Position numbers and translations under genes: made by a program. The notes beneath the pieces are model-generated. The model was not told the origin of the DNA. It worked only from the letters and a program-made list of their open reading frames with translations, and ran no database searches. Shown one piece after another: positions 936 through 58,931 of a stretch of 64,000 nucleotides of DNA (the first letter of the stretch is position 1; each line of letters begins with the position of its first letter). This DNA is from Acorus gramineus (taxonomy: Eukaryota > Streptophyta > Magnoliopsida > Acorales > Acoraceae): assembly GCA_030737835.1 (NCBI GenBank), contig JAUJYN010000012.1:4965585-5029584 (forward strand). The letters run 5' to 3'.

Positions 936-1020
936 TGTTTCTGAGAAGGTTTGTGTGAGCGGTGGTGTGTTTGGAGTGGTTGGAGGTGGTCTTTATTTGT
1001 AATTGAAGGTACACCGCATG

Positions 1021-1037
1021 TATCCATATATATCTTA
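1021..1037 (-). promoter_or_regulatory. Possible TATA box of the GLDP gene
   Basis: On the minus strand a GATATATATGGATA stretch lies about 90-100 bp upstream of the GLDP ATG, a plausible TATA position with a short 5' UTR. No other evidence; position and sequence only. Confidence 0.3.
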
Positions 1038-1040
1038 CAC

Positions 1041-7751: not shown

Positions 7752-8265
7752 GGAGAAAATCCATATAACTCATTGTCTTTTCCTGAAATCCATATAACCC
7801 TCTAAAAACATCTATGTAAATTCAAATAGCTGCCTGAGTTAATTTTTTTGTGACAAATTTGAATTATTTTACGAAATATTTTATTTGATTAAACCTAACT
7901 GAAAACATAGTATATGAAAACCCCACCAGATATGAAAATGTGAAAAATCCTTTATAAATGACGAATTTACCCCATCAGATATGGTTTTATAATATATCCA
8001 GAGAGGTAAAATTGTTATTTACAAAGATTATTTTTTTTTCGCATTTTAAACAATTTGTAGGTTTTTTTTGGTATATTGTGTTCTTAGTAAGGGTTAGTCA
8101 AACGGAATATTTGTAGAATATTCCTCATCTGCCAACGAAGGTTTAATTCAGGTGGTCACTTGGATTTATATAATATTTTTAGGAGTTTATATGAACTTTA
8201 GTAAAAGTCAACAGTTTATATGGAATTTAAGCCGTTTACATAAGGTTGTTTGAATTTTTCCCTTA
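7752..8265. mobile_element. Foldback MITE, about 0.5 kb (complete copy)
   Basis: The left arm (GAAATCCATATAACCCTCTA...CTGCCTGAGTTAA) is the reverse complement of the right arm (TTAATTCAGGTGGTCACTTG...GTTTATATGGAATTTAAGCC). A related element is at 14,795-15,300. A right half only is at 11,829-12,093, where the DEFL duplication begins inside the element. No coding capacity; superfamily not determined. Confidence 0.65.
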
Positions 8266-8308
8266 AAAATAATATAAAAAAAAAGATAAAAAAGAACAAT
8301 TTTTTTTT

Positions 8309-8386
8309 TTTTTGGGTAAAGGCGAACCCGCGACCTCTCGTATGAGAGGATGCATCTCGACCACTCAGCTGAGGGGGTCAGTTGCA
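8309..8386 (-). repeat. tRNA-derived SINE-like remnant, B box damaged
   Basis: Minus-strand copy of the element at 12,137-12,223. The A-box region is retained, but several bases of the GGTTCGAAC B box are deleted, so pol III transcription is unlikely. It lies about 450 bp upstream of DEFL copy 1. Confidence 0.45.
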
Positions 8387-8755
8387 AAAAAAACCAAGTT
8401 GAGATACCCTCTCACCATAATAATTTTTTTTTTTCAAATTTACGTGTGTTGCTTCTCTTGCCTAAATCAAATTTAAAATGGTATAATATATAGATTGATC
8501 TTTCCAAAAACTATATTTTTAGTAATAATACATTAATGTATTGATTGTCAGATTTTTTATTTGGAAGAATGTATCATTTTACCAAGCAAAAAGAAGAAAA
8601 AAGATTTATCATTTACCCGATTTGCTACATGAAAATCAATATAAATGCATTATCCATCATTATGTATATATCCCAAAATTCAATATATTCAATGTTGGGA
8701 GATTTCATTATCCATATTTAACATCTAAGGCGAACTTTCTATATGTTTGGATCAT

Positions 8756-8769
8756 TATATTATATATAG
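8756..8769 (+). promoter_or_regulatory. TATA box of DEFL copy 1
   Basis: TATATTATATATAG, about 70-85 bp before the ATG. This spacing fits a short 5' UTR starting near 8,795. The same sequence is present upstream of copy 2 (12,604-12,617). Confidence 0.55.
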
Positions 8770-8839
8770 CCCAAAAAGATTAAAACTCAGTCATCATATT
8801 TCAATACTCTAGAGGAAACTAAACTATTAAGCATATACC

Positions 8840-9341
8840 ATGAAGCCATCCTCATACATCCCACTCATTGTGGCTCTTTTGATTCTCCTCCACATAGGTA
8901 AATAAATATTTGCTTTATCTTTATTTTTCATTGTAATGTACTTAAAATATGTATGTTCTTGAATATTTCAGAAGTAATGTTGGTTTTCAAGTAATTTATT
9001 AAACATAAGAAAATACCATGAAAACTACATTAGAAATGCATTAATATGTATTTATTAAACAAAAAAAAATAATAATATGAAAACTCTATTACAAATGCAT
9101 TATTCTGTAACTTTAACCTTTTGATTTCTTTGGTTTAGGAATTCAAGTAATTGGTGACCCCGAAATGAAGACATGCAAGGAAGAGCTGGTGTCAAGAGTT
9201 GATTGCGAACCAGAACATTGCAACACATTTTGTAAGGCAGCACACAGCCAACAAGGATCAGGAGTATGCAACACTACTGATCCTTTTATCTGTGATTGCT
9301 ACTGGCCTGCGCCAGTTGATACCAAATGTCCATCACCTTGA
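8840..9341 (+). CDS. Secreted defensin-like (DEFL/LCR-type) cysteine-rich peptide, copy 1
   Basis: Two exons, 8,840-8,897 and 9,139-9,341, with a GT-AG intron of 241 bp; together 86 codons. Residues 1 to about 25 form a signal peptide (MKPSSYIPLIVALLILLHIG, ending near VIG). The mature part of about 61 residues has eight cysteines spaced C-x9-C-x4-C-x3-C-x11-C-x7-C-x-C-x9-C. The C-x3-C and C-x-C pairs plus a GVC gamma-core fit the cysteine-stabilised alpha-beta fold. An intron within the signal-peptide end is the usual DEFL gene plan. Such peptides act outside the cell in defence or reproductive signalling; the role here is unknown. A TATA box, an AATAAA signal near 9,405 and an identical second copy support a real gene. 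An 8-Cys LCR/SCR-like peptide is as far as I can place it. Confidence 0.85.
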
Positions 9342-9630
9342 AAAAAGAAGCTTATGTTGTAAGGGAAATGGAAATTTTTGAGATGTATAATATCTCAAAA
9401 TCTAAATAAAATAAAGTTCTTTGTGGTACTTACTTTCATCTCCCAAATCAAGATTGTTAGAATCATATGTTTTATTTTTATTAGATTTTAATAATTGTCA
9501 TTATAATTGTGTATTTATTATTTGTAGTAGAGTCATATTTGATATTACAAATATGTTTTTAATGTTTGTGAGATATAAAAGGAATACCACCATACTATTT
9601 AATACCAAATGCCTACGACCTTTTAAAAAA

Positions 9631-9783
9631 GGGTTAAAGACATCTAAGTCCCTACAAACATGAGAAAACCCATATAAGTCCCTACTAAAATTGGGACAGA
9701 CGTACGAGCCCCTGAAAACTAAGAAAAACCCAATTATCATCATTGAGTTAAATTTCCATCCAAACTTAACGGAGATAGAATAA
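9631..9783. other. Unique filler between DEFL unit 1 and DRG2 copy A
   Basis: This 153-bp segment replaces the roughly 2.75 kb (13,476-16,224) that separates the corresponding parts in the downstream arrangement. It contains two TAAGTCCCTAC motifs and no gene. Confidence 0.6.
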
Positions 9784-11800
9784 TTCAACTAGAATAATTT
9801 AAAACACAACCAAATAAAAAGTCACTTTATTCTCCATCAAACGGAGATAGATTGATTTAAATACCATAATGAATGGTTCTGAACAGAAATAACATGTAAT
9901 GATTCACCTAATGGAAATAATGATTCACCCAATGGAAATAGAGCCAAATAGTCATTTCACATCAAAGACCATCCTAACCTCCAATTTTATTTTTGCCAGA
10001 ATTCCCACAGAAGATATAGGTAATAGGTCAGAGATGCAACTTAAATGCTGTAATCTATAACATACATCATGCAAGTGATGATTTAAATAGGCTCAAACAA
10101 CTAATGGATTTATCTTGATAAAGAAAAGGAATGCACCTTTTAATAAGTGATCTTAGAATAACTACAATCCAGTTGATTAAAGTTCCTTATAGATTCATCT
10201 GAATAGCTGGGGTCATTATGGTAGAACCATCAATTCATGCTGTGTATGGCAGTTTCAATTCATTAAAATGTGTCCTCTATTCATGCTGCATGGCTTAAAT
10301 AGCTCTTGGAAAAAGAAATACAAACTAATATGGAAGGCCTGTTTTTGGGGGGCACTTGCATTATGTTTTCAAGGGGGCCTTCTTCTCTCTATCAGATATC
10401 CGGGCAGGAGCATTTGAATGTGACTTGAAGCGACCTCTACCACCCTCATCGGTCTCCTATAATTCCAATAAGTTTTTTACGTCAATAAAAAAAATAAAAG
10501 ATGAAACAAACACCAGATGTGGTAAAAATCTAGTGAACTTGAAGACGATAAAAATGAAAAAGCATTTCATATTTCAACCACTTAAGTATTCTCATGCAGG
10601 GATACGAGGAACAGGATATGTGTCCATCCATCTGAACTCGCTGGTTCTGTGCCTTAAACTTGGCCAAGAAAATTCATGGATTCAAGAACTTTACTCATTG
10701 ATGGATTTTAATGGACACAGGTTGATACCAGTTACAGAAATACTAGCCGACTTAACCAAGTTCAGAGGATGGGATTAAACATGTCCAAAGTAAATTTATC
10801 CTAGTTATATGAAATATCTTACAGACGTGGGTGTGATGATTTTGGCATCACGTTTGATCCTACACACGACCTCAACAAAATCCTTGAAAGAAAATATAAA
10901 GAGCAGAAAACTCACCTTTTTCTTCACTATCTGGACGACATCCTCGTCATGGAGAACGTGAGAGGTTCCACAGTGTTGTGGGAAGTGCCTTGCACTAGTA
11001 CCCCACACCAACACATATTTGACATCCTTTAGCAGGTTCCTATGTATATGATTACAGAAGTCTTCTACCGAGCAACCACCTCGGTCCTGCAATTAGATGT
11101 AACAGCCATCACAACTCGGAGAATAACAATTTATTTGATTCTGCATACTTGGAAAGGCCAAGTGAATGGGTGAACATACAGAAGAAAGAAGAACTGGGTC
11201 TGAGAAATCAGGTTGCTGCCCTTGTGGCTTCGTGTAGACCCTCACGAGCCCCATTGCCTCCCACATTTTTGCCAGAAGTCTGTCCAGGTTCAACTGTGAC
11301 ATCAAAACCAACTAATTAATGTGGGTGGGTTCCTTGTTTTTTTCTTCCTTTTTCTCCATGTTATTATAATCAAAACATTTTTTTCCTCCTCTCAGTTCTT
11401 TTTGGTGGAAATATGAGATGAATCAATTATTTCAATTGTAATGGAATGTGTGTGTAAAGAATCAACAAAAATATAAAGATAAGAATAACCTGCCTTCAAA
11501 TTGCAGCTAATAACAACTGAGTTAGGTTGGCGGGCAAGTTTGTCCACATCATCAATGCCAACAACGTCAATCTTGTTGTAAACGTAAATGCATTTCATGT
11601 ATTTTCGATTTCCTTCTATAACATCTATAAGATCATCGACAGTGGCATCCTCACGAAATAGCAGCTACATTTGTTAAGCCATAAGGAGCTGGTTATAATG
11701 CATAAAATCGACAGTAATGATCACTTTAAAATAGTGCAGCAGAATCCATGAAAAAAAAGAGATAAAACATAAAAAGAACATAAGATAACACAATGTGAAA
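9784..11800. repeat. Segmental duplication, DRG2 3'-end copy A
   Basis: Collinear with 16,225-18,234 and nearly identical, with a 7-bp insertion (TAATAGG) near 10,020 and scattered substitutions. It begins abruptly at TTCAACTAGAATAATTT and stops at CACAATGTGAAA, where DEFL-unit DNA follows. Confidence 0.92.
10361..11664 (-). pseudogene. Truncated DRG2 duplicate: exons 8-11 only
   Basis: Minus-strand exons 11,494-11,664, 11,180-11,293, 10,916-11,086 and 10,361-10,456 correspond to exons 8-11 of the intact gene at 16.8-36.2 kb. They encode [11 protein letters not shown] through the TGS domain to the stop after APLKT. Splice sites are kept, including the GC donor after exon 8. The first seven exons (HTH, G1-G3) are absent because the duplication stops in intron 7, so no GTPase can be made. 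Two amino-acid differences are visible in exon 9 (MWEAMG for MWEEMG; PVLLSS for PVVLSS), and at least one silent change in exon 11. The exons are otherwise open, indicating a recent event. Confidence 0.9.
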
Positions 11801-11870
11801 TAGTTATTTACAAAGATGTTTTTTTTTCTAGAGGGGTAAAATAGTTATTTACAAAGATGTTTTTTTTTCG
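11801..11870. repeat. Duplication junction with a 27-bp direct repeat
   Basis: TAGTTATTTACAAAGATG followed by a T run occurs at 11,801-11,827 and again at about 11,844-11,870. This is exactly where DRG2 intron-7 sequence is joined to the middle of the foldback MITE upstream of DEFL copy 2. Confidence 0.75.
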
Positions 11871-12136
11871 CATTTTAAACAATTTGTAGGTTTTTTTTGT
11901 ATACTGTGTTTTTAGTAAGGGTTAGTCAAACGGAATACTTGTAGAATATTCCTCATCTGTCAACGAAAGTTTAATTCAGGGGGTCACTTGGATTTATGTA
12001 ATATTTTCAGGGGTTTATATGAACTTTAGTAAAAGTCAACAGTTTATATGGAATTTAAGCCGTTTACATAAGGTTATTTGAATTTTTCCCTTAAAAATAA
12101 TATAAAAAAAAGAGAAAAAAGAACAAGTTTTTTTTT

Positions 12137-12223
12137 TTTTGGTGGGTAAAGGTGGGTTCGAACCCGCGACCTCTCATATGAGAGGGTGCATCTCGACCAC
12201 TCCGCTAAGAGGTCTGCTGCAAA
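12137..12223 (-). repeat. tRNA-derived SINE-like element with intact A and B boxes
   Basis: On the minus strand TAGCGGAGTGG matches a pol III A box and GGGTTCGAACCC a B box, about 32 bp apart, flanked by A/T homopolymers. The anticodon-arm region is a perfect palindrome (CCTCTCATATGAGAGG) and the acceptor ends do not pair. I therefore read this as a short SINE or tRNA fossil rather than a tRNA gene. Confidence 0.5.
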
Positions 12224-12603
12224 AAAAAAAAAAAAAAAAAAAAAAAGTTGAGATACCCTCTCACCATAATAATTTTTTTTTTCAAATTTACGTGTGTTGC
12301 TGCTCTTCCCTAAATCAAATTCAAAATGGTATAATATATAGATTGATCTTTCCAAAAACTATATTTTTAGTAATAATACATTAATGTATTGATTGTCAGA
12401 TTTTTTATTTGGAAGAATGTATCATTTTACTAAGCAAAAAGAAGAAAAAAGATTTATCATTTACCCGATTTGCTACATGAAAATCAATATAAATGCATTA
12501 TCCATCATTATGTATATATCCCAAAATTCAATATATTCAATGTTGGGAGATTTCATTATCCATATTTAACATCTAAGGCGAACTTTGTATATGTTTGGAT
12601 CAT

Positions 12604-12617
12604 TATATTATATATAG
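12604..12617 (+). promoter_or_regulatory. TATA box of DEFL copy 2
   Basis: Same TATATTATATATAG and spacing as in copy 1. Confidence 0.55.
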
Positions 12618-12687
12618 CCCAAAAAGATTAAAACTCAGTCATCATATTTCAATACTCTAGAGGAAACTAAACTATTAAGCATATACC

Positions 12688-13185
12688 ATGAAGCCATCCT
12701 CATACATCCCACTCATTGTGGCTCTTTTGATTCTCCTCCACATAGGTAAATAAATATTTGCTTTATCTTTATTTTTCATTGTAATGTACTTAAAATATGT
12801 ATGTTCTTGAATATTTCAGAAGTAATGTTGGTTTTCAAGTAATTTATTAAACATAAGAAAATACCATGAAAACTACATTAGAAATGCATTAATATGTATT
12901 TATTAAACAAAAAAAAAAAAATGAAAACTCTATTACAAATGCATTATTCTGTAACTTTAACCTTTTGATTTCTTTGGTTTAGGAATTCAAGTAATTGGTG
13001 ACCCCGAAATGAAGACATGCAAGGAAGAGCTGGTGTCAAGAGTTGATTGCGAACCAGAACATTGCAACACATTTTGTAAGGCAGCACACAGCCAACAAGG
13101 ATCAGGAGTATGCAACACTACTGATCCTTTTATCTGTGATTGCTACTGGCCTGCGCCAGTTGATACCAAATGTCCATCACCTTGA
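12688..13185 (+). CDS. Secreted defensin-like (DEFL/LCR-type) cysteine-rich peptide, copy 2
   Basis: Exons 12,688-12,745 and 12,983-13,185 (intron 237 bp) encode 86 residues that appear identical to copy 1: signal peptide, eight cysteines and the C-terminal DTKCPSP. The intron differs by a short indel in an A run, and the 5' and 3' flanks carry scattered substitutions while the coding part is unchanged. This hints at a very young duplication, gene conversion or purifying selection. Both copies keep TATA box, splice sites and AATAAA, so both could be expressed. Confidence 0.85.
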
Positions 13186-13440
13186 AAAAAGAAGCTTATG
13201 TTGTAAGGGAAATGGAAATTTTTGAGATGTATAATATCTCAAAATCTAAATAAAATAAAGTTCTTTGTGGTACTTACTTTCATCTCACAAATCAAGATTT
13301 TTAGGATCATATGTTTTATTTTTATTAGATTTTAATAATTGTCATTATAATTGTGTATTTATTATTTGTAGTAGAGTCATAATTGATATTACGAATATGT
13401 TTTTAATGTTTGTGAGCTATAAAAGGAATACCACCATACT

Positions 13441-13573
13441 ATTTAATACCAAATGCCTACGACATTTTAAAAAAAGAAGATATGCTTTAAGGGAAATGGA
13501 AATTTTTGAGATGTAAAATATCTCAAAATCTAAATAAAATAAAGTTCTTTGAGGTACTTTCATCTCCCAAATC
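13441..13573 (+). pseudogene. Remnant of a further DEFL copy (last codons plus 3' UTR)
   Basis: AATACCAAATGCCTACGAC aligns with the GATACCAAATGTCCATCAC end of the DEFL coding exon. It is followed by a close copy of the DEFL 3' UTR (AAGGGAAATGGAAATTTTTG ... AAATAAAATAAAGTTCTTTG). The stop and the rest of the exon are gone. DEFL unit 1 ends in the start of the same remnant (9,600-9,630), so the remnant predates the large duplication. An array of at least two genes existed first. Confidence 0.75.
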
Positions 13574-13739
13574 TGGATAAATTAAACAAATTTTGGCTCA
13601 TATCCATACGACTGCAATATTAGAACAACTTCACTACTCTTACAGAAATTAGATGATGTGGGTGATCGAATGTGAGGTACAACACTCGGTGAACATTATG
13701 CATATTTAATACATGCAAATACATAAATTGATGAGAAAT

Positions 13740-14389
13740 AATAATAATAATTTTTTTTTTGAAAAGGTAGTTCATTCATAATTAATTAAGACCGAATTAC
13801 AAATAGGCTGAAATATGGGAGAATAGAATACCGAAAAACATAAGGAAAGAAAGTAAGAAAACCTAACATCCTAACCCCATGGAACTAAAACATGCATGGT
13901 CACTTGTCCTGCCGCCAAGCAGCGTCGACGCCCTCCTACCCTCTCTGAGGAGTGTTGAAGACAGCATGCGTTGAGCGTTGCTAGGACCTTATCCCCACTA
14001 CCCAGTCCTCATTCCTCGATCCAAAATACACCCCAGGCTCCCACACGAGCCTCGCGCCTATTAGAAATCTCCCCCAATCCTTCAACAGCCGGATGACATC
14101 TTGCCACAGATTTTCAAGGTAGACAGGCTGACCTTTGAATATCAGCTCGTTGCGCGCACGCAAAATGGACCAAAGTCCTGCAGGAATGACTATTCTCCGA
14201 AATCGACTTTGAATGCATTTCTCACCTTGAGGAAGTGGCGAGTCCATAGTCTCCCGCAATTCCTCCAGGTTTTGAATGCCACATGTGAAACTCGCGGCCA
14301 CCCCGAGTCGGTCCCAAAGTCGGCCTGATATAGCGTAGTTGAGTAGCAGGTGCTCTATCGTCTCCGGTTTGATCCCGCAAAACAGGAGT
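13740..14389 (-). mobile_element. 5'-truncated LINE (L1-type), 3' end of ORF2 with poly(A)
   Basis: The minus strand encodes the C-terminal part of a plant LINE ORF2: FRRIVIPAGLWSILRARNEL, WQDVIRLLKDWGRF and upstream PETIEHLLLNYAISGRLWD (zf-RVT region), then a 3' UTR and poly(A), seen as T run near 13,752 on plus. It is flanked by TTGATGAGAAAT at 13,728-13,739 and 14,390-14,401, a 12-bp target-site duplication. Dead on arrival; no RT domain. Confidence 0.88.
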
Positions 14390-14794
14390 TTGATGAGAAA
14401 TTATTAACTGAGCATGAACTCGATCCATGAAATCTATACTCTGGTCCGGCTGTTTTTAGTTAAGACCCATTAGATCCTAGATGGACTGTTGAATCCTATC
14501 ACCCCAAAACAACGCTTCCACCAATACATGGGTTCATCGATCGATCGAATAAGGATGAATGACCACTATACCCATGTTCTTTCCTCCATTAAGTTATGTT
14601 AAATTTGGGATTGCGAGGGAGTATTATGGTAAATGGTGATGACAGCTTTGGGAACGCAAGAAATATTGTCAAACAGCCATTCATCAAGAGGTTCTAGAAA
14701 AGGGAATGACTGTCCCCAGCCTCACCATTTTCCATTCCTCAAGAGGTCTAGAAAAGCCCCCATTGGAGGCTGCCCCATGACGAGCAAAATCAAA

Positions 14795-15300
14795 ACTATC
14801 TGAAATCCATATAATCCCCTAACTTTTTGTAAAATTCATATAACTTCGTGAAAACACCTATATAAATTTAAATAACCCCCTGAATTAAATTTCAGTTGAC
14901 AGATAAAGAATATTATGTGAATATTTCGCTTGGTTAACCATATGTGAAGACACAATATACCAAAACTTATTTCCAATTTGTCAAAAACCTTATGTAAATG
15001 ATAATTTTATCCCTCTAGATAGAGCTTTATAATCCATCTGAATGAATAAAATCATCATTAACAGATGATTTTTCTCATTTTTAACACATTGTAGGATTTT
15101 TTTGGTATATTATATTTTCAACTAGGGTTAACCAGATAAAATATTCACATAATAATCATAATCTGTTAACAAAAATTAAACTCAGGGGTTATTTGGATTT
15201 GCATAAATATTTTCAGGGGGGTTGTATGGATTTTAGAAAACAACCGAGGGTTATATGGATTTTAGGTAGTTTACATGGGATTATTTGGATATATCCCTTA
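14795..15300. mobile_element. Foldback MITE, about 0.5 kb, related to 7,752-8,265
   Basis: Arms of roughly 200 bp are inverted: TGAAATCCATATAATCCCCT at the left, and TTATATGGATTTTAGGTAGT with GTTATTTGGATTTGCATAAA at the right. The whole could form a long hairpin. No coding capacity. Confidence 0.65.
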
Positions 15301-16224
15301 TGTAAAATGATAAAAATTCTAAATACTAATAACCGTCAATTTGGAAGCAAAACTTTTAACCCTGTTTGGATAGAATTATACTAGGAGAATAGGGTGGATA
15401 AGCCCAAAAACATGTTTGTTTGCAAGGAATAAGTGAATATGTTTGTGCTAAAATAAATGAGAATAGAATAATATTGGTATTTCAAGTCTTTCTAAAATTA
15501 TGTTATTCTACCCAATTTATTTCATTGATAAAAGAAGACCCATATATTAAATCACCTTTCATTACTTTTTATAAATCAATGAACCACATATCATATCACT
15601 TTCACCGTATCCTTACTCACCACAATATATAATTGATTAATCAAATAACAAAAACTTCATTATTATATTTTTCAATAAAGAATAATTAAAATACTAGACA
15701 AATTATTATTCTTTATATATACTTGAATAGTTATTTATTTTGGAATAACTTATGTTGCTATCCAAATGAAAACTTAGAACATCCAAAATGGTGAATCTAA
15801 TAATTGAATTCAAAAACCAATTCGGAATTGTCCACTGTGATTCAGCAATTGAAATACTAATGCTGTATACGCAAAATTGCAAGTGATACAGAAATACATA
15901 TACATGCACCATGATGCAAAAGCTCTTGAACCCCCATTTGGTTCAAGCATAGGGCTAGAATAAATGAGAATTAATTAGAATAACATCAAAATGGGTGTTT
16001 GGAAAGCTTAAATAAATGAAAATCTGTGTCAACATTAACTGATATAAAATAATATATAGATTCTAATCGACCATTGAAATTAAGTTATTCTAGGTTATTC
16101 AACCAAAACAATATGTAGACTCATTGTCAAACCAATTGTTATCACCTCTTACAAATCAAATCAATTGTCATAATTTTTTTTACCTTTTTATAAATCCCTA
16201 TCCATACATTTTTTTTTTACTTTT
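15301..16224. other. AT-rich spacer with MITE-like fragments
   Basis: CCTGTTTGGATAGAATTAT near 15,360 and TATCCAAATGAAAACTTAG near 15,760 are roughly inverted. CCATTTGGTTCAAGC near 15,935 looks like another terminus. Probably decayed MITEs; no gene. Confidence 0.35.
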
Positions 16225-18234
16225 TTCAACTAGAATAATTTAAAACACAACCAAATAAAAAGTCACTTTATTCTCCATCAAACGGAGATAGATTGATTTA
16301 AATACCATAATGAATGGTTCTGAACAGAAATAACATGTAATGATTCACCTAATGGAAATAATGATTCACCCAATGGAAATAGAGCCAAATAGTCATTTCA
16401 CATCAAAGACCATCCTAACCTCCAATTTTATTTTTGCCAGAATTCCCACAGAAGATATAGGTCAGAGATGCAACTTAAATGCTGTAATCTATAACATACA
16501 TCATGCAAGTGATGATTTAAATAGGCTCAAACAACTAATGGATTTATCTTGATAAAGAAAAGGAATGCACCTTTTAATAAGTGATCTTAGAATAACTACA
16601 ATCCAGTTGATTAAAGTTCCTTATAGATTCATCTGAATAGCTGGGGTCATTATGGTAGAACCATCAATTCATGCTGTGTATGGCAGTTTCAATTCATTAA
16701 AATGTGTTCTCTATTCATGCTGCATGGCTTAAATAGCTCTTGGAAAAAGAAATACAAACTAATATGGAAGGCCTGTTTTTGGGGGGCACTTGCATTATGT
16801 TTTCAAGGGGGCCTTCTTCTCTCTATCAGATATCCGGGCAGGAGCATTTGAATGTGACTTGAAGCGACCTCTACCACCCTCATCAGTCTCCTATAATTCC
16901 AATAAGTTTTTTACGTCAATAAAAAAAATAAAAGATGAAACAAACACCAGATGTGGTAAAAATCTAGTGAACTTGAAGACGATAAAAATGAAAAAGCATT
17001 TCATATTTCAACCACTTAAGTATTCTCATGCAGGGATACGAGGAACAGGATATGTGTCCATCCATCTGAACTCGCTGGTTCTGTGCCTTAAACTTGGCCA
17101 AGAAAATTCATGGATTCAAGAACTTTACTCATTGATGGATTTTAATGGACACAGGTTGATACCAGTTACAGAAATACTAGCCGACTTAACCAAGTTCAGA
17201 GGATGGGATTAAACATGTCCAAAGTAAATTTATCCTAGTTATATGAAATATCTTACAGACGTGGGTGTGATGATTTTGGCATCACGTTTGATCCTACACA
17301 CGACCTCAACAAAATCCTTGAAAGAAAATATAAAGAGCAGAAAACTCACCTTTTTCTTCACTATCTGGACGACATCCTCGTCATGGAGAACGTGAGAGGT
17401 TCCACAGTGTTGTGGGAAGTGCCTTGCACTAGTACCCCACACCAACACATATTTGACATCCTTTAGCAGGTTCCTATGTATATGATTACAGAAGTCTTCT
17501 ACCGAGCAACCACCTCGGTCCTGCAATTAGATGTAACAGCCATCACAACTCGGAAAATAACAATTTATTTGATTCTTCATACTTAGAAAGGCCAAGTGAA
17601 TGGGTGAACATACAGAAGAAAGAACAACTGGGTCTGAGAAATCAGGTTGCTGCCCTTGTGGCTTCGTGTAGACCCTCACGAGCCCCATTTCCTCCCACAT
17701 TTTTGCCAGAAGTCTGTCCAGGTTCAACTGTGACATCAAAACCAACTAATTAATGTGGGTGGGTTCCTTGTTTTTTTCTTCCTTTTTCTCCATGTTATTA
17801 TAATCAAAACATTTTTTTCCTCCTCTCAGTTCTTTTTGGTGGAAATATGAGATGAATCAATTATTTCAATTGTAATGGAATGTGTGTGTAAAGAATCAAC
17901 AAAAATATAAAGATAAGAATAACCTGCCTTCAAATTGCAGCTAATAACAACTGAGTTAGGTTGGCGGGCAAGTTTGTCCACATCATCAATGCCAACAACG
18001 TCAATCTTGTTGTAAACGTAAATGCATTTCATGTATTTTCGATTTCCTTCTATAACATCTATAAGATCATCGACAGTGGCATCCTCACGAAATAGCAGCT
18101 ACATTTGTTAAGCCATAAGGAGCTGGTTATAATGCATAAAATCGACAGTAATGATCACTTTAAAATAGTGCAGCAGAATCCATGAAAAAAAAGGGATAAA
18201 ACATAAAAAGAACATAAGATAACACAATGTGAAA
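16225..18234. repeat. Segmental duplication, DRG2 3'-end copy B (native locus)
   Basis: Partner of 9,784-11,800. Here the exons continue into the rest of DRG2, so this is the parental location. Confidence 0.92.
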
Positions 18235-48983: not shown

Positions 48984-49164
48984 TGTTAAAGAGTCATTAT
49001 TAGGATAATATTATATCTTTATTATCATTATTGTGATATTATTAGTTTCCTAGTTTTCCTAGATTCCTTATCTGGTATTTTAGGGTTTCCTCTATATATC
49101 TATAAATAGAGCCCTTTGGCTCCTCTAATATAATAACAAGAATTCCCTTTTCTTTATTCTAACA
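48984..49164 (+). repeat. 5' LTR
   Basis: TG...CA ended, TATA box at about 49,101, direct repeat of 50,682-50,862. Confidence 0.97.
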
Positions 49165-49176
49165 TGGTATCAGAGC
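49165..49176 (+). promoter_or_regulatory. Primer binding site, initiator Met tRNA type
   Basis: TGGTATCAGAGC directly abuts the 5' LTR end, the standard PBS of plant Copia-type elements. Confidence 0.95.
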
Positions 49177-49266
49177 CTCCACCTCAAAAATCCTAGATCC
49201 ACAAAAGCTTCTCTTTCTCTTCCCCGCTTCGATTGAAGAGTCTTCAATCGGAGCGGGGGAGGAATT

Positions 49267-50364
49267 TTGCTCGCGAGTTCTAAAAGCCCTCGCCGTCGCC
49301 GTCGTGCCCTTGCCGTCGTGCCCTTGCCGTCGCCGTCGTGCCCTTGCCGTCGCCGTCGCCGTGCCCTTGCCGTCGCCGTCGCCGTCGTGCCCTTACCGTC
49401 GCCGTCGCCGTCGTGCCCTTGCCGTCGCCGTCGCCGTCGTGCCCTTGCCGTCGCCGTCGCCGTCGTGCCGTCGCCGTCGTGCCCTTGCCGTCGCCGTCGC
49501 CGTCGTGCCCTTGCCGTCGCCGTCGCCGTCGTGCCCTTGCCGTCGCCGTTGCCGTCGTGCCCTTGCCGTCGCCGTCGCCGTCGTGCCCTCGCCGTCGTGC
49601 CCTTGCCGTCGCCGTCGCTGTCGTGCCCCTGCCGTCGACGTCGCCGTCATGCCCTTGCCGTCGCCGTCGCTGTCGTGCCCCTGCCGTCGACGTCGCCGTC
49701 GTGCCCTTGCCGTCGCCGTCGTGCCCTTGCCATGGCCGTCGTGCCGTTGCCGTCGTGCCCCTGCCGTCGCCCCTGCCGTCGCCGTCATCGTCGTGCCGTT
49801 GACGTCGCCGCCCCTGCCGCTGCCGTCGCCGCTGCTGGCGCCGCCCTGCCGCTGCTCGCCCAGCCCTGCCGCGCGCCCTGTTGCTCCCTGCCGCGCCCAG
49901 TCCTGCCGTGCGCCCTGCCCGGTGCCCTACCGCGCCGTGCCCTGCCGCGCCGCGCCCTGCCGCGCAGTGCCCTGCCGCGTCGTGCCCTTGCCGTGCGGTT
50001 GCATCTGCCCGGATTTCCCGGGATCTGTCGCGCTGATCCTGGCCGGATTTCCCGGGATTTACTGGGACAGCTCCTGCCAGCCGGTCTCGAGCTGTCCGGA
50101 TCATCTCGCGCGTCCGACCCGGGCCACTCCCAGCATCCGACCCGGGTCCGCCCAGCATCCGACCTGGATGCGCGAACTCGGCTCGGGATGCGATCCGTCC
50201 TCCGGCCGCCCTCTCGCCGCCTCAGGCCGCCCTCCGCCGCCACCGGCCGACATCCGCCGCCTCCGGCCGCTCTCCGCCTCCGGCTCCTCCGGTCGCCGTC
50301 GTGCTCCTCCGGCCGCCCTGCCGCCGCCTCCGGCCGCCCTCCGCCGCCTCCGGCACCGCCTTGA
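49267..50364 (+). other. GC-rich minisatellite and open frames inside the LTR element
   Basis: 49,290-49,800 is built of CCGTCGCCGTCGTGCCCTTG-type units with variable numbers of CCGTCG. 49,800-50,000 is CTGCCGCGCCGTGCC-like and 50,000-50,370 is GC-rich unique sequence. Because the DNA lacks A/T-rich stops, several frames on both strands stay open for 130-365 codons. The longest plus frame starts MLASSKSPRRRRRALAVVPL and is Arg/Pro/Ala/Val repeat with no known domain. I do not call it a gene: no codon-level conservation can be seen. An Arg-rich product cannot be excluded. Confidence 0.6.
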
Positions 50365-50668
50365 GACTTCAAAATCACTAAATCGGTCATAACTTCCTCT
50401 CCGAAAATCCGATTAAGGTGATCCAGGGGTCCGTTTCGCTCGATTTTTCGTTCTCTATGCATCTGTGTGATTCTTTTCTTCATCCGAGATCTCTACGATC
50501 CTCCTCGCAGATTTGCACACCTTCGCGCATCTCCCTACGGCATCGACCGCCCTATCGCGCTCTCGTGCAATCTCACGACTCCCCTTGCACACCTCTATGC
50601 AACTCTCTATCACCAGCCTCCGCCACCTTCTCATTTTTCTGCAAACTCTAAGGGTTCTACCATTCAGA

Positions 50669-50681
50669 GTTTGGAAGGGGG
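50669..50681 (+). promoter_or_regulatory. Polypurine tract
   Basis: TTTGGAAGGGGG immediately before the 3' LTR primes plus-strand synthesis. Confidence 0.85.
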
Positions 50682-50862
50682 TGTTAAAGAGTCATTATTA
50701 GGATAATATTATATCTTTATTATCATTATTGTGATATTATTAGTTTCCTAGTTTTCCTAGATTCCTTATCTGGTATTTTAGGGTTTCCTCTATGTATCTA
50801 TAAATAGAGCCCTTTGGCTCCTCTAATATAATAACAAGAATTCCCTTTTCTTTATTCTAACA
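50682..50862 (+). repeat. 3' LTR
   Basis: Direct repeat of the 5' LTR with one visible mismatch in 181 bp. Confidence 0.97.
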
Positions 50863-51593: not shown

Positions 51594-54500
51594 TTAATTT
51601 GGTGGCTCCGGTGTCCCAAAAACGTTCCAGAACTTCAGCGTCTCGTCCCCCGCATCCGATGCCACCGTACAGCCATCTGGGCTCTGCAAATTTTGATCAA
51701 AACCATGTCAAGAACACTATACAATTTCAGAATATGTAAAACATGGTAAACCATGAACATCAAGACTCTGAAGATACTAAACCATGGGAGGGCTCACCTG
51801 GGCCATGAAGAGCACTCGCGAAGTGTGTCCGGTGAGCTCCGCGACCTTAACCATGGAAGGGTACTTCCACAGTGTGAGCTGGTTCTGCGCGAATCCGTGC
51901 GAGCTCAGCAGCTCCCGCTCCTTCTTGTTCCAAAGCAGCGCGCACACCTGCGACCCCGTATCCACCGAGTTCAGGCACGCCCCCGTCTGCGTGTTCCAGA
52001 ACTTTATGCACCGGTCCCCACCTCCCCCTCCCGATGCCAATAGGTTGCTCTGGAACGGGCACCACGCGAGCGCCTTCACCGCCGCCGTGTGATTCTCGAA
52101 CCGGTGCAACCACTTGTTCGGCCCGCCTGATGACGACCGGTCCCATATGTGAATCAAATTGTCATTGCCTCCGCTTGCAAGGTGTCGGCCCGAGCTCGAC
52201 CACTTGAGCCCGCACACCTCCTCCTGGTGCCCCCTGTACGTCTCGACAACGCTCGACCGGACCCGAACATCGTTGTTGACGATCAGGCCGTCCATCCCGC
52301 CCGTCGTGAGGATGTGGTTGTTCCACGCGAGCGCGCCCACACGTGACCGGTGCCCTCCGTGGAGTGTCCTCAAGAGGCGCATCGCGGCGGAGTCCCAAAG
52401 CTGCACTTCGGAGTTGTTCAGCCCCACCGCGATGTGCCTCCCGTCCGGTGCCCAGCTCACGCTGGTGACCGGTCCGGTCTCCTCCTCGACGCTCAGCAGC
52501 TCAGATGTCGAACCGTCCAATCCGTCCCACAAGTAGACCTTGTTTCCGAGCGCGATTGACAACACGTTGTCGCTTCCCCAATCTAACAAGTTCAAGTAGT
52601 AGTCGTCGATGAGGTCTGGCGCGTCTAATGTCCTCTCCGCAGACTAGCAAATGATGTTCAATTCTATCAATGGAGGTGGTCCTAAAGAAACTAATTAACA
52701 TCAATGGATACTTAAATTGGGTACTTACTTGAGGAATGCATCGGTGGGGCTTGGCTGAGGACTTGGGAAGATGAGAAGAGCAGACCTCGTTGAAGATCAT
52801 CCCCTGAATGGATGCGGAGGGTTTGCTCTTGAAGGCGAGGATGCGAGTCTGGTTGTTCAAAAGGGTCTCTGCGAGGCACTTGCGATAGGCCTCTTTTGAT
52901 GGCGAACGCATCGAAGAGTTCTCTTTTTCTTTCCTTCTTCCCTCTGTTAGCAAGTAGTGGGCCATGTCGAAGTCCATGGAAGATCGGTTGGGGATGAAGC
53001 GATCACTCTGCAAGAACCAGAGATGTATGAACATTAGAATTACAGAACATGAAGAAGAAGTGAAACCCAAAAGATGTAAAATTTAAATGAGGAAAACCAA
53101 TAAGAGAGGTGATTTCAGAAAAATCAATGAAACAGATGGCAAAAAGGGAAACCAATAAGAGAGATTTCTAGGAAAAACAGATGCCCAATGTGGATTCAAG
53201 CAAAAAAAAAAAAAAATCACAGAATAACAAAATTAGGTGGAAAACTAGAAGAAAAAAAAAGAGGAGAACCCATATCATGAATCACATAAAGAAAAGTATG
53301 AACATAAAGATTCCTGAACAAGAAGGAAATGAGAAACCCAAAGAAGGCACACAACACAAAAGATGTAAAATTTGTTCTTACAAACATAAATCAGGGATCG
53401 CGTATATAACAATTTTGAACTAATCAACTATTACAATTGTAGATTGAAATTTTGCAAAGGACAACAAATATGAATGTGACGGATGAAATCAAGTGCTTGG
53501 CTAAAGGTCCTCACCATTCTGCAAGAAGATTCAAGGGATATATAATCAATGGTTTTCGGTTTCGCACGAAGAGCAATGACAAAAGTAGAACCACTCAAAA
53601 TAGTGGAGTTATGCTTAATGCGGATACAATGAGTTATGCAAGTCGAAAGGACAATAACCCTCGTAGGGGAGATGTTACTTTCTATGGGGAGTTGACAGAT
53701 ATCATTGAGATTCGCTACACCAATGAAATGAAATTTGTCATGTTCAAGTGTAATTGGATTAATAATCATTTGGGGTTGAAGGAAGACGAGTTTAAATTTA
53801 CATTGGTGAATTTCAATAATCTGTTATATAAGGACAATCGAATAATCGATGAACCTTTTATATTAGCATCCCAAGCTGAGCAAGTATGGTATGTGCAAGA
53901 CCCCGTGGAACCAAATTGGCATGTTGTTGTGAAGGTAACAAGTAGAGATTTGTTTGACATGTATTCAAAAGATTTTTCTTCTAATGTGAGAGTGGTCCCT
54001 CAAGTTGAGCCATTTAGTACTCAACAATTAGATGAAACCGCATTTGTTCGTATTGAGGATGTTGCTTGGGTGAGGCAAGGAATGGATGGAACAACAGTTG
54101 ATGTTGTTGGCGAAGATGACGTTGAGATGGCTGAATGTGAAGACATTTGACCACATTTAATTTTTCTAAATAATGTATGTTTTCACTTATATACTAAATG
54201 TGATGACATTTGATTACATTTAATTTTTTTTTGTTTACATATATATTATTGTCTCAGCTATAATATATTTTTTTAACAGGTGAATAATGATGAGGAAGAG
54301 AGGACATGGTATATCTATGTCTGAGAGGTTGCATTCTACCTCTGAGCCACAATCACGCCTGCACTCACAACCTTCTTTACAGCTTCCACCTCATAGACAA
54401 TCTCATTCAGAGCGTCTGTCCCAGTCCCATAGACAATCGTCTCAAGCTACTTCACAGGCCACCGTTTCTACACCACTTTCAAATGATTCAGGTTTTACTC

Positions 54501-57500
54501 TTAGTCCTATTACATTTATGCTTTAATTTTTTTGTGTATTATCTCTAAAATCAATTTTTATTTTAATACTATACATAAGGAGCTAGCATGTGTGGCACAA
54601 GCAACAACAGGAAAGGTCGAGGTTCAGCTCGATCTTTGTCCATATGGGGTACAGGGGAGAAGCTACATATAAACTTTAACGAGATGATGCAACCGATTGG
54701 TCTAAACGCGACGAAGTTGACATCCCAACTTGGCTATATAGCCCGGGATAGCCATAGAGTACCTTTGACGTATGTATCATGGAGCGATATGCCAGAAGAT
54801 GTATTAGATGATATTTGGAGAGATGTCGAGGTATAAGTTTATGTTATGTATATTTTTCTAAATAATTTATTTGGAGAGATGTCAAGGTATAACTAATTTA
54901 TATATTGAATTATCATTGTAGGATAATACTAATGCTCCAGTTGAATATAAAGAGAACTGTTTGCGGTCTGTTGGAAAATATTGGAAAGATTGGAAAGGAC
55001 GTCTCAAGAGTAAATACTTCAACGCATATAAGACGAATGAAGAGAGAATAAAGAATGTTCCACCTAGGGTAGAATCCAATCAGTGGAATATATTGGTTCA
55101 GTATTGGGGATCTAATGAAGCTACCGTATGCACTTTTCTTACATCATCCTTAAATTTCAAATTGATTAATTGATGCTCATGACAATTTTTTACTTCTATT
55201 TTAGGTGTTAGCGGATAAAAATAAAAGAAACCGTGAACAACAAGGCTTGCTCCATAGGACTGGAAGGACATCATTTGCAGAGCTACGTAGGGAGGTAATT
55301 TGTGAGTTTACTTAATAATTTATTATTATAGATATTTAAATTAGTTAATTGTGTATTTTATATCCTTGCAATAGTTGGCTAGCAAAGGGGAGGCTACAGA
55401 TCGAATGAGTGTGTTTGTAAAATCACGTCAAGACAAGAGTGGTTGTGCACCTGATGAAGAAACAGCGGAGGTCATTGTAAGTGTATATTAGGAAATCTCT
55501 ATCTTGTAACAAAATATGATATTCAAATTGTAGTTTTTTTTATACTCATAATTCTAACACAATGTATGTAAATATGTTTTGCAGTCTCAGATGGAACATC
55601 GACTTTCTGATGTGCCAGAGCCGGAACAAACACAAGCTATTCGAGAGAGAGTTTTCACTTCAGTGATGGGACCTGATGGACATGGTCGTGTACGAACATT
55701 TGGTTTTGGTCCCTCCCCGACAGACATATTTGGTCGACCACATATATCATCGAGGCCTTCTCAAGAATTATTGGATAGGATGCGTGAGGAGATTCGTAAG
55801 GAGATTCGAGAGGAGATTCGAGATGAGATTCGAGAGGAGGTGCGTAATCAGTTAAGAGAAGAGATGCATAGTGAGTTGCAAACTGCTGTACTAGTAGCAG
55901 TACGAGCTCACATGGAGTGTCCACGTGTGGCGACAACAAACCCTTCTACTAGTGGACAGGTAAACTATTAGATATACCGCTATGTATTTGTTATTATTTA
56001 TAAATATTATAACATATGATAATTTTGTTTGTAGGTTCCCGATGCATGTAGTTCGCATCGTCCACAATCTCCTTGATTGGTCGAGTTAGCATTGTAAAGA
56101 TTTTGATATAGTAAGTTTTTTTTGTTATCCAAATCTATGCTTTTCACCAATATATTTTTGATCCGACATACATGTCATGTTATATTCGTGCTTACAACTT
56201 TCAATGCCTATGTTTATCTCTTCTTTTTCTTTCTGGACTCTCTATTCCTCTGGACATTCTTATGTCTACTTGCATGCTATGTTTACTTTGCATAAGGCAC
56301 TGCCTGTATATGCATGGGAGCTGTAAAGTTTAGGCAGTAAATTTTCACATCAAACCAGTGTTTCATGTGCCAGTAGCGACTTTTATCAGCATTTTGATTT
56401 ATTTGGGTGATATATTGTAACTTCTTTATTTTATTGTCAGGAACCTGATCAGGGAGGTTGCTGGGTTTGCACCTTATGAGAAGAGGATTACTGAGCTTCT
56501 TAAAGTGGGAAAAGACAAGCGTGCTTTGAAATTGGCAAAGCGAAAGTTGGGCACCCATAAGAGGGCGAAGAAGAAGCGTGAGGAGATGAGCAATGTGATT
56601 CGCAAGATGAGGTTTGTCTAATTTTCTTAAATTATGATTTTTCAAGTAGTGTATACAAGTAGGATGGATTAAGTTCTGCATTTTGGTTCAAGATTTGTTC
56701 TTTAGCAATGTCATTGGGCACTTTGAGTTTTTTTTTTTTTTTGGGGTTTGGGGGGGAGGGGGGGGGGGACATCAATGCTTTTCACCAATATATTTTTGAT
56801 CCGACATACATGCCATTTAAGATGCGTTACTGAATGTCCTCATTGCCACATCATAAATGTAAATACATATTTACCATCCGCATGGTGCTAGCATTCACAA
56901 CCTATATACCTATTTATATAATTCATTATAAGACACCTGGTGAGAATCCCTTGAGACTCGAGTACATTTTTATTATATGTTTTGCTTTAAATATATGAAG
57001 CAAAAGATTGATTGTTAGCTAAATATATTACTTTTTTTTCCTCAAAAAAAAAAAGTTCTCTCTTCACTGCAATTACAGGACATGTACTCTTGAATCATTA
57101 GGACTTTTAATTAGTTAATTTGTATGCATAGATTGTTGGGAGATCTAGATTTGCATCTGGTTTGGAGATTTTAAGTTCAGTATGTATTTAGCTACACTTG
57201 TCATAATCTGTTGTAAGAATTAGTAGATCTATTCTCTCTCTATCAGAAGAAGAAAAGAATAGAATATCTTCTAGTTTTCTCTGCTCGAGGTCAGAACCTC
57301 TCTATTTCCTGAACTACTGCAAGATGAAATCTTATTGCATTCATTTACACAAAGTAGATCCCCCGTTCCTTCCAAATGGGGGCCAACTCTATTTTCTTGT
57401 ATAATATAATGCTTCTTGTCATCACCTCTCATCTGTAGAAAACAATTATTGTTAATTTCATAATAATTTTGATGTAAATGGTTAACTGCACTTGTGATAT

Positions 57501-58931
57501 CATTATTATTGTCATTCATATTGAATTGACTTGTAGAACTGAAGCTGCATGTACTGACATTGCTGCATCTTAATCCTTATTCAACTTCCAGTGAATAATT
57601 TATTATGGTTAAGCTTTGCCGTTTTTTCATTACATTTGGAATTCTTTGTGCAGGGCTGCTGCTGGTGGGGACAAAAAGAAGTGATAACTGGTTTCCTAGC
57701 ATCAGGATCTGTCATAATCCTATGCTGTTTTTTGAGAACTTATTTAGTTTAGAGAAGACTGAGAAGATGCTTGATGTGTATTGTTTTGATGACTATGGTT
57801 CAGATAAGGTATTGGGTGATGCCTGTATCATGTTGAAGTGATCTCAGCTTGTTAAGGATTTGAAGATTATGCCTGTATCATGTTGAAGTGATCTCAGCTT
57901 GTTTTTTGAGAACTTATTTTGATAAGGATTTGAAGATTATGGTTTCTGGTCATTTAAGGTTATGGTGTGATGGTATGGTTTTTTATTTCTGTTTATCTTT
58001 TGTAGTGGTTTTGGTAATTGAGAAAATAAATGTGCTATTTTGAATAAATCAATGCTGATGTAAGCTGTCTACTTTGTTGTAGGTCATTCTATTACAGATT
58101 CATTTGTTGTTTTGCTTCGATTGCCTTTAGTGTTTTAGTGGGTGTTTTAGTGGTTGTCATTGAGTAATAATTTGTTTTGCGCTTTATCCAGAACATGTTA
58201 CTTGAGTACACCGCTTAGTCTCATTAATGTGCATGCATTGCCAACTGTTACATCATTAATGCAATTCTTTCTAAAATCTCAAAAAAAAAAAAAACATTAT
58301 TTGCGACGGTTTAGGCCTCTGTCGCAAAAGTCAAAAAATAAAATAAAAATGTTTTTTGCGACAGCTAGTTTATCCGTCGCAAAATATGTAGTTTACACTA
58401 CTATAGTAAAAAGGAAGTTTTTGCGACGGATTATTTGCGACGGTAGCAAAACCGCTATAAAAGATACTTGCGACGGCTAAAAACCGCTGCTATTCTTTTG
58501 CGACGCCGTTTGGTACGACGGAACCCAAACCGCCGCAAAACCGTCGCAAAAGGGTATTTGCGACGGTTATAGAGGCTTTTTGCGACGGTTTCAAACCGTC
58601 GCAAAAAATGGTTTTTCTTGTAGTGAAAAGATGTAAAATTTGTTCTTACAAACATAAATCAGGGATCAGATCAGATGACGCAATAAAATAATAATAAAAA
58701 AAAAGCAGAGAGAATGTTCAGATGGCCCAATGTGGATTCAAACCCAAAACAGAATCACAGAACAACAAAATAAGGTGGCAAACTAGATAAAATGAAGAAC
58801 CCATATAATGAATCAAATAAAACAAGACCAGAATCAATCAAGAGAAGAATTTGAGGACTCACGTTCTGTCTTGAAGGGGGGTTTCGAAGGAGGATATGTT
58901 TCGGAAGGGGACGGCGAGACCCTGCATCCAT
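51594..58931 (-). CDS. CDC20: CDC20, WD40 activator of the anaphase-promoting complex (427 aa, 4 exons)
   Basis: Minus-strand exons: 58,863-58,931; 52,729-53,007; 51,798-52,643; 51,594-51,683. All junctions are GT-AG, phase 0. Exon 1 ([20 protein letters not shown]) has the typical MDAG start. Exon 2 has the C-box DRFIPNR (25-31), a KEN box (51-53), and RILAFK (78-83). Exon 3 begins [20 protein letters not shown] and holds most of the seven-blade WD40 propeller, with [34 protein letters not shown] and a [12 protein letters not shown] blade. Exon 4 completes the last blade ([20 protein letters not shown]). CDC20 recruits mitotic substrates such as cyclins to APC/C in dividing cells. Intron 1 is 5.9 kb because of a CACTA insertion. 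The protein ends GTPEPPN and lacks the C-terminal Ile-Arg expected of activators. Confidence 0.93.
53030..53399. repeat. Local repeat cluster in CDC20 intron 1, left side of the CACTA element
   Basis: GAACAT...GAAACCCAAA...AAAGATGTAAAATTT occurs at about 53,034-53,082 and again at 53,299-53,372. GCCCAATGTGGATTCAA...TCACAGAATAACAAAATTAG at 53,184-53,236 reappears at 58,728-58,772. The last 42 bp (53,358-53,399) are repeated exactly at 58,626-58,667. Confidence 0.85.
53452..54150 (+). pseudogene. CACTA TNPD-type protein, C-terminal DUF4216 part
   Basis: Open for 232 codons, probably starting at an acceptor (ACAATTGTAG near 53,443). [49 protein letters not shown] and [20 protein letters not shown] are DUF4216 hallmarks of plant CACTA transposase ORFs. 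The catalytic part that should precede it is absent, so it is a fragment. Confidence 0.85.
54287..56076 (+). CDS. CACTA TNPA-type protein (plant Transposase_24 family)
   Basis: At least seven exons with GT-AG borders: about 54,287-54,490; 54,583-54,831; 54,922-55,124; 55,205-55,294; 55,376-55,478; 55,585-55,960; 56,035-56,076. Segments: [74 protein letters not shown], then an E/R-rich repeat ([19 protein letters not shown]) likely to form a coiled coil. In En/Spm the TNPA-type protein binds subterminal repeats and helps transposition. I see no obvious stop within the exons; exact borders of the first two are uncertain. Confidence 0.7.
56137..56174. repeat. 38-bp direct repeat, left copy
   Basis: ATGCTTTTCACCAATATATT and following bases to CATACATG. 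Identical to 56,775-56,812; the two flank the eL36 exon segment. Confidence 0.9.
56441..57684 (+). pseudogene. RPL36: Captured fragment of ribosomal protein eL36 (RPL36) inside the CACTA element
   Basis: The exon 56,441-56,611 after a TTGTCAG acceptor encodes [40 protein letters not shown] and [21 protein letters not shown] intron of about 1.04 kb follows, then exon 57,654-57,684 encoding AAAGGDKKK and a stop. This is the C-terminal half of the 60S subunit protein eL36. The first exon(s), which encode the MTTPQ...TIFI half, are missing and no ATG exists. The eL36 frame is intact. A 3'-UTR-like stretch follows to about 57,950. Its position between the transposase gene and the transposon's right end marks it as transduplicated. 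Confidence 0.92.
56775..56812. repeat. 38-bp direct repeat, right copy (within the eL36 intron)
   Basis: Copy of 56,137-56,174. It follows a poly-T/poly-G tract (about 56,731-56,769). Confidence 0.9.
57815..57955. repeat. Short tandem duplication downstream of the eL36 fragment
   Basis: ATGCCTGTATCATGTTGAAG followed by TGATCTCAGCTTGTT occurs at 57,820 and 57,868, and AAGGATTTGAAGATTATG occurs twice. Confidence 0.85.
58296..58625. repeat. CACTA subterminal repeats and right terminal inverted repeat
   Basis: About eleven copies of TTTGCGACGG or a close variant in both orientations, ending with TTTTTCTTGTAGTG. These are the transposase-binding arrays that define CACTA element ends. Confidence 0.93.
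58626..58830. repeat. Right-flank copy of the CDC20 intron-1 repeat
   Basis: 58,626-58,667 equals 53,358-53,399. 58,728-58,815 resembles 53,184-53,290 (GCCCAATGTGGATTCAAAC, AAGAACCCATATAATGAATC). Confidence 0.85.

Follow-up and report, generated by a model that had tools for sequence, protein, structure and literature searches.

The window analyzed here is a 64,000-nucleotide stretch of the Acorus gramineus genome (contig JAUJYN010000012.1, positions 4,965,585 to 5,029,584 of the forward strand; G000:C32:4965585-5029584 in the 398.6-Mb genome that was searched). Inside intron 1 of a CDC20 gene, it contains a 5'-truncated CACTA transposon that has captured part of a gene for ribosomal protein eL36. 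The captured DNA, its parent gene, a patchwork of sequence at the capture junctions, a full-length sibling, and the truncation of the window copy can all be read directly from the genome. We regard it as probable that the eL36 part was taken up by template-switching repair, that the chimeric element moved later, and that the window copy was truncated after its insertion. The parts of the window copy and its borders are listed here by window position.

53358..53399, no strand, left copy of a 42-bp perfect duplication of host sequence
53400..58625, plus strand, 5'-truncated CACTA element inside CDC20 intron 1, equivalent to the rightmost 5.2 kb of a full length of 11.35 kb
53443..54150, plus strand, last TNPD exon, DUF4216 (PF13952)
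54287..56076, plus strand, TNPA-type gene, Transposase_24, 422 aa, 7 exons
54287-54491, 54580-54830, 54922-55125, 55205-55294, plus strand, TNPA exons 1 to 4
55375-55476, 55585-55959, 56035-56076, plus strand, TNPA exons 5 to 7
56137..56174, plus strand, extra 38-nt copy from parent eL36 intron 3, out of order, at the left edge of the captured DNA (exact parent match)
56176..57854, plus strand, eL36 fragment collinear with the parent on contig C8 (by alignment), comprising the 3' portion of intron 2, exon 3 minus its start, intron 3, exon 4, and part of the 3' untranslated region (UTR)
56433..56433, no strand, single A replacing 36 parental nt
56441..56611, plus strand, partial eL36 exon 3, counted from the first full codon that follows the AG at 56439-56440
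57654..57684, plus strand, eL36 exon 4, stop codon TGA at 57682-57684
57856..57925, plus strand, right-border patchwork (exact-match map)
57856-57871, plus strand, 16-nt CACTA piece in the right border
57869-57903, plus strand, repeated piece of the eL36 3' UTR
57900-57919, plus strand, repeated piece from upstream in the eL36 3' UTR, followed by 6 extra nt before CACTA sequence resumes at 57926
57926..58289, plus strand, stretch from the captured DNA to the subterminal repeats
58290..58625, plus strand, right subterminal repeats and terminus
58626..58667, no strand, 42-bp host duplication, right copy, its first base directly after the terminus

A captured eL36 fragment with a parent on another contig

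The eL36 exons in the window matched PF01158 (E 2.5e-29). A gene on C8 has all eL36 coding exons and is collinear with window positions 56176-57854; further paralogues on C10 and C4 are more distant. We also considered that eL36 might be a resident gene. However, exons 1 and 2 are absent from the window, where tblastn with full-length eL36 gave only chance-level hits. Together with the complete parent on C8, this agrees with the original prediction, made from the window sequence, that the fragment is captured and not resident.

That prediction had described two 3' eL36 exons with their intron and stop. The exons and the TGA are there, but the seeming splice acceptor at 56440 sits within a codon and is not the native site. 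The 36 nt replaced by a single A include the native acceptor together with 22 nt from the beginning of exon 3, and they are replaced in both element copies that we found. About 67 eL36 codons are open in both copies. Even so, the frame is not intact as had been proposed, since the acceptor and the start of exon 3 are lost.

A full-length sibling on C129

A search for the parent gene and other family members had been suggested, and it was productive. Searching the genome with the eL36 part detected a second eL36-bearing copy at G000:C129:125982-137330. This element is 11,349 bp long, has both CACTA ends (CACTACAAGAAAAACCATTTTTTGCGACG at 125982), and has the duplication ACG on each side. Its right part is 99.45% identical to window positions 53397-58626, with 14 substitutions, and it has subterminal repeats both left and right of the eL36 fragment. 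Neither of the two outcomes named beforehand as contradicting capture, a resident eL36 gene or family members without such repeats to its right, was obtained. Because this full-length sibling carries the same eL36 piece, the piece lies inside the transposon and has moved with it. The same internal borders with different flanks at the two loci likewise indicate that the chimeric element has moved.

The TNPD sequence of the C129 element matched Transposase_21 (PF02992, E 1.5e-99), as well as Transpos_assoc, DUF4218, and DUF4216 (PF13963, PF13960, and PF13952). These domains are distributed among open reading frames in more than one frame; the frame changes may be introns or lesions, and we make no claim that the element is active. 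Its TNPA is open across the same exons as the window TNPA. C129 has a host fragment between both CACTA ends and the parent is elsewhere, on C8, as expected for transduplication. Pack-CACTA elements are nonautonomous and without transposase genes, whereas TNPA is present in the window and TNPD and TNPA sequence in C129. Therefore, the element is not strictly a Pack-CACTA.

The window copy is a truncated member of the CACTA (En/Spm) superfamily, classed in this way because its relatives on C129, C7, and C61 have both ends. Its right terminus, CTTGTAGTG, is at 58617-58625, and in a scan of the whole window, TTTGCGACGG and its reverse were confined to 58300-58605. The TNPA model is open over 422 aa (Transposase_24, PF03004, E 2.6e-23), and 57926-58193 matches relatives on C5:794k, C7, and C121. 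The copy therefore has the TNPA-type protein and subterminal repeats of the superfamily, but CACTA terminal inverted repeat sequence at its right end only, and 42 bp of duplication where 3 bp is the rule. TNPD with Transposase_21 is known in the family from C129. The window copy itself begins within the intron preceding the last TNPD exon and is without the Transposase_21 part, PF13952 being its sole remaining TNPD domain. These results modify the original prediction of a canonical right end with TNPA/TNPD-type genes. The terminus, the repeats, the seven-exon TNPA, and the DUF4216 exon are all present, but the rest of TNPD is missing, the copy is 5' truncated, and its 42-bp duplication is atypical.

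The borders of the captured DNA are a patchwork

In the exact-match map, CACTA sequence continues to 56135, with ATC common to the next join. There follow the 38 nt of eL36 intron 3, which also occur in native order within 56771-56827, and then the collinear fragment beginning in intron 2. The intron-2 join is located in CATGCCAT, a sequence present in both parent introns, with one base altered in the element. On the right, the eL36 3' UTR ends at 57854 and is followed by one extra base and then by the short CACTA and 3' UTR pieces listed above, with ATG and TGTT at their joins.

The bases common at the four switches number 3, 8, 3, and 4. Random joins share a mean of 0.77-0.79 nt; about 7% of them share at least 3, 2-3% at least 4, and about 0.04% (about 4 per 10,000) at least 8. 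Only the 8-bp join is striking by itself, and it is the order of the pieces that is the chief evidence for template switching.

Relatives share the flanks and carry other pieces

A TNPA search yielded at least 41 matches, at least 21 of them aligned over 620 bases or more. Among 30 TNPA loci that were extracted, two, the window and C129, ran on into eL36, 21 matched until 56121-56135 and then diverged, and 7 stopped earlier. Most of the right end is present at 40 or more places (best 40 of 127 candidates). Relatives thus share TNPA, to 56121-56135, and the right end, without eL36.

The interval from TNPA to the right end was searched in six members (window/C129, C7, C5:9330591, C61, C43, and C121); a member on C109, with parts common to C5 and C61, was left out of these searches. 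In all six, parts of the interval match loci that are not among the scored TNPA and right-end family hits. These 12 loci, with identities of 93-100%, are as follows.

Loci 1 to 6: eL36 on C8; TBP on C5:2.33M; C6:12.64M; C6:14.54M; C2:22.32M; C2:20.49M
Loci 7 to 12: C9:16.23M; C5:23.15M; C7:13.01M; C32:1.16M; C3:26.60M; C6:12.56M

Here, outside means beyond the scored family hits, and the scored lists are lower bounds, so a locus without a protein match might conceivably be a stray family fragment. Protein comparison named eL36, TBP (E 2.5e-12), a Rab GDI exon, and, weakly, a mitochondrial carrier (E 0.023). The Rab GDI exon, in the C43 member, is an older piece; it scored 24.1 bits against a cut-off of 23 with Pfam on sense frames, and Rab GDI in PDB only at E 0.086. 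No homologue was found for a gene-tail peptide from C2. Captured gene tails with a stop and a 3' UTR include those of eL36 and one gene on C2. Pfam found nothing in sense read-through frames of the C7, C121, C61, and C5 intervals, but this approach misses short exons, because C121 holds TBP exons and yet gave nothing.

A 964-bp TBP piece in the C121 member interrupts sequence that both the C5:794k member and a C6 locus have without a break. The C6 locus is outside the family, its exon-like open frames extend past the captured end, and the 856 bp surrounding the TBP piece are 99.8% identical to it. Because this locus matches the TBP surroundings without interruption, one captured piece lies inside another. 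The TBP piece is an independent capture in a relative. Its joins share at most 1 bp, so they demonstrate insertion and not necessarily microhomology. The ends of the BLAST alignments had suggested a 7-nt overlap at the right join, but base-by-base reading reduced this to at most 1 nt. The arrangement is located at C121:3500-7499.

Two other intervals have a composite appearance. The one at C61:1446400-1450399 contains a short stretch that by eye resembles the element's own TNPD coding sequence, beside exon-like sequence. The one at C7:6085400-6089399 combines sequence from three outside loci, among them a carrier-like gene copied with internal skips; at its joins, adjacent BLAST pieces have overlaps of 6-11 nt, which overstates the truly shared bases.

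The left interval also varies. The C61 left region shares its first 565 bases with C129 and then has no match until TNPD, and the C7 left region (about 1.2 kb seen) shares its first 566 bases plus scattered pieces. The left sequence fetched for C43 had no match to C129 and no left end. In C129 itself, the first ~548 bases of the left interval occur at 27 or more places over at least 320 bases (best 40 of 117 candidates), the greater part of the remainder has few matches (C3:25.53M, C5:29.84M, and C2:22.08M), and the last 0.8 kb matches two relatives. The stretch with the three outside matches (620-3180 of the fetched sequence) possibly represents further captures. We had entertained a single capture slot to the right of TNPA, but this idea was dropped because the left interval also differs between members. 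Both noncoding intervals, left and right, are changeable.

The eL36, TBP, and Rab GDI pieces are all in TNPA orientation. When Pfam was run on the antisense frames of the six intervals, two matches fell far below the cut-off and none exceeded it. However, this test of orientation is weak, and we claim no bias, because four of the five other intervals had no match in their sense frames either.

Template-switching repair as the probable route of capture

In what order and direction the events ran, and by what type of repair, is our inference. Capture would have begun with a break or excision gap in the noncoding stretch between TNPA and the right end of a full-length En/Spm-type CACTA element with TNPD and TNPA. 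Repair synthesis would have switched template to the unlinked eL36 gene, which lies on another contig. After 38 nt of intron 3 had been copied, synthesis would have returned to intron 2 at the 8-bp shared sequence and continued for about 1.7 kb, through the last eL36 exons and into the 3' UTR. Several short jumps between CACTA and eL36 3' UTR sequence would have followed before the element was rejoined. The chimeric element would then have transposed, giving a C129 copy that is full length and a window copy that was truncated later.

Several observations sit less comfortably with this account. Base 56136, after the ATC join, mismatches the parent and fits neither side. Two joins bear 1 and 6 extra nt, and three of the four joins (3, 3, and 4 nt) are individually unremarkable compared with random joins. 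The TBP joins, sharing at most 1 bp, fit plain end joining of filler equally well. Also, the exact precapture element was not found in the genome, where relatives supply its flanks only.

The eL36 DNA could alternatively have been the sequence between two CACTA elements that flanked an eL36 gene and were mobilized together, as has been proposed for Arabidopsis Pack-CACTA elements in the accessible portions of two papers (PMC13317346, PMC8903248). However, at the borders the eL36 pieces depart from their native order and CACTA sequence lies between them. The parent is also on another contig, and C8:5718000-5743999 has no window match above 60 bits except the eL36 fragment. Furthermore, the TBP piece in a relative lies within another captured piece. 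Joint mobilization is very unlikely in view of these results, and template-switching repair is the reading that we carry forward.

The truncated copy in CDC20 intron 1

As predicted, the element sits in intron 1 of CDC20 (53008-58862), a minus-strand gene identified through a PDB match (E 8.7e-99). CDC20 is on the opposite strand, and therefore the eL36 piece is antisense to it. The effect of the insert on CDC20 is probably neutral or mildly disruptive. The intron also holds a diverged direct duplication (53064-53290 versus 58621-58821, pieces 81-85% alike) that predates the insertion.

Full-length relatives have 3-bp duplications (ACG for C129, AGA for C7, and ATG for C61), unlike the 42 bp flanking the window copy. 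At the left join, C129 reads TTTTATC|GCGTATA and the window reads CAGGGATC|GCGTATA. The final ATC of the left 42-bp copy is also present in the C129 element, so 3 bp are common to this join.

Our best reading is aborted gap repair, a process (abortive gap repair, Rubin and Levy) cited in the accessible text of PMC8978399; its application to this locus is our own. After insertion into CDC20 intron 1, the left side of the element would have been broken and then extended 39 nt beyond the insertion point, with an uninserted chromosome as the template. Joining of the extended end to the element interior at the 3-bp ATC would leave a one-ended remnant with a 42-bp duplication in place of a 3-bp one, and the window copy would thereby have lost its left 6.1 kb. 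Other types of break could also yield a 42-bp duplication and a 3-bp match, which tempers this proposal. For this step only, a broken CACTA fragment with one end intact might have been ligated into a filled staggered break with nicks 42 nt apart. Such an event would likewise place a duplication directly beside the intact end and leave a few shared bases where the broken end was joined. However, the right-end cut would have to coincide precisely with the terminus and the nicks be staggered by 42 nt, and prior insertion needs neither. We consider it a serious possibility but clearly the less likely one, and we retain truncation after insertion.

The eL36 piece most likely has no role as a protein

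It had been proposed that the eL36 C terminus could be spliced to upstream transposon exons. TNPA introns are in phase 0 or 1, and the eL36 piece requires phase 2, so the proposed splice fails. Indeed, all six modelled TNPA donors ran into a stop within 12 residues, which eliminates an in-frame TNPA-eL36 fusion.

The original prediction also called for a comparison of selection between the fragment and its parent, and the outcome was neutral. The captured copy differs from the C8 parent at 4 of 200 coding and 32 of 1474 noncoding sites, the mask of 200 coding sites taking in one intron base. In contrast, resident C8 and C10 eL36 differ at 3/200 coding and 109/1459 noncoding sites. With C10 as the judge, the 32 differences common to both element copies comprise 24 that are new in the element, 7 in the parent, and 1 undecided. 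The two element copies differ from each other in the eL36 stretch at 2/200 coding sites and 0/1475 noncoding sites, and both differences change a residue. There is no sign of purifying selection on the captured coding part, because coding and noncoding divergence are alike, although only 200 coding sites could be compared.

Expression as a functional fusion or as a truncated protein under selection would be favored by the codons still open in both copies. However, the native acceptor is deleted, no TNPA donor allows an in-frame splice, the captured copy has not diverged as the resident genes have, and the sole two differences between element copies are coding and residue changing. We give this possibility almost no credence, and the piece most likely has no function as protein, judged by its sequence.

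Other repeats in the window

Beside CDC20, a 181-bp direct repeat (99.4%, 48984-49164 and 50682-50862) brackets GC-rich (CCGTCG)-like repeats; 48984-50862 looks like a short long terminal repeat (LTR)-type or TRIM (terminal-repeat retrotransposon in miniature)-like element. Further direct repeats occupy 7997-18234 (9784-11800 versus 16225-18234, 99.3%; 7997-9630 versus 11827-13474, 95.9%) and are probably LTR retrotransposon sequence.

Discussion

Gene capture by CACTA elements is already known, and the value of this case is its base-level record. Plant examples documented in the accessible portions of the sources cited here include Tpn1, Tgm-Express1, wheat 3B, Chenopodium, and Pack-CACTA. 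Tpn1 elements of Japanese morning glory have shared terminal regions and differing captured host fragments, like the Acorus family, and some of their captured regions are transcribed in chimeras (PMC5105172, PMC8195511). However, Tpn1 capture copies are nonautonomous with a replaced interior, whereas the Acorus members examined keep TNPA, and C129 also keeps TNPD sequence. Soybean Tgm-Express1 is likewise a CACTA element with several host fragments in a host-gene intron, but its exons are spliced into the host transcript (PMC1947982), whereas the eL36 piece runs antisense to CDC20 and no longer has its acceptor.

Chenopodium CACTA elements also carry host fragments outside the coding part of otherwise complete elements (PMC8978399). 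Those captures are in the 5' region and eL36 is between TNPA and the right end, though the left interval varies in Acorus too. Wheat chromosome 3B has 140 CACTA-mediated captures of the same kind, mostly gene fragments, but its accessible description is a survey without base-level borders, unlike the eL36 case (PMC4290129). Pack-CACTA and other Pack-TYPE elements similarly have transduplicated fragments between CACTA ends; they are defined as nonautonomous and explained by joint mobilization of neighbours, as opposed to template switching to an unlinked gene here (PMC8903248, PMC13317346). The closest likeness in mechanism is the gap filling of animal Pack-TIR elements (FoSTeST), which also involves template switching, with joins that share 1-36 bp (median 2). 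FoSTeST is known from animal elements, and the accessible text leaves its application to plant Pack-MULEs open (PMC8277862). A switch-by-switch capture border for a plant CACTA element was not found in the accessible text of the open-licence literature searched, and the papers found there on "ribosomal protein" together with CACTA were all organelle-genome papers.

A broader idea is that this transposase-bearing family repeatedly swaps its noncoding intervals, on both sides, for unlinked host pieces by template-switching repair, with gene tails serving as borrowed TNPA transcript ends. We put this forward as speculation and think it rather doubtful as a whole. How cut-and-paste elements take up pieces of unlinked genes is still an open question according to the accessible part of a 2026 review (PMC13317346). 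The Acorus family provides a base-resolved set consisting of a parent, a full-length chimera, a truncated descendant, piece-free relatives, and a second capture with two uninterrupted loci. Therefore, template-switching repair becomes directly testable in a plant CACTA family.

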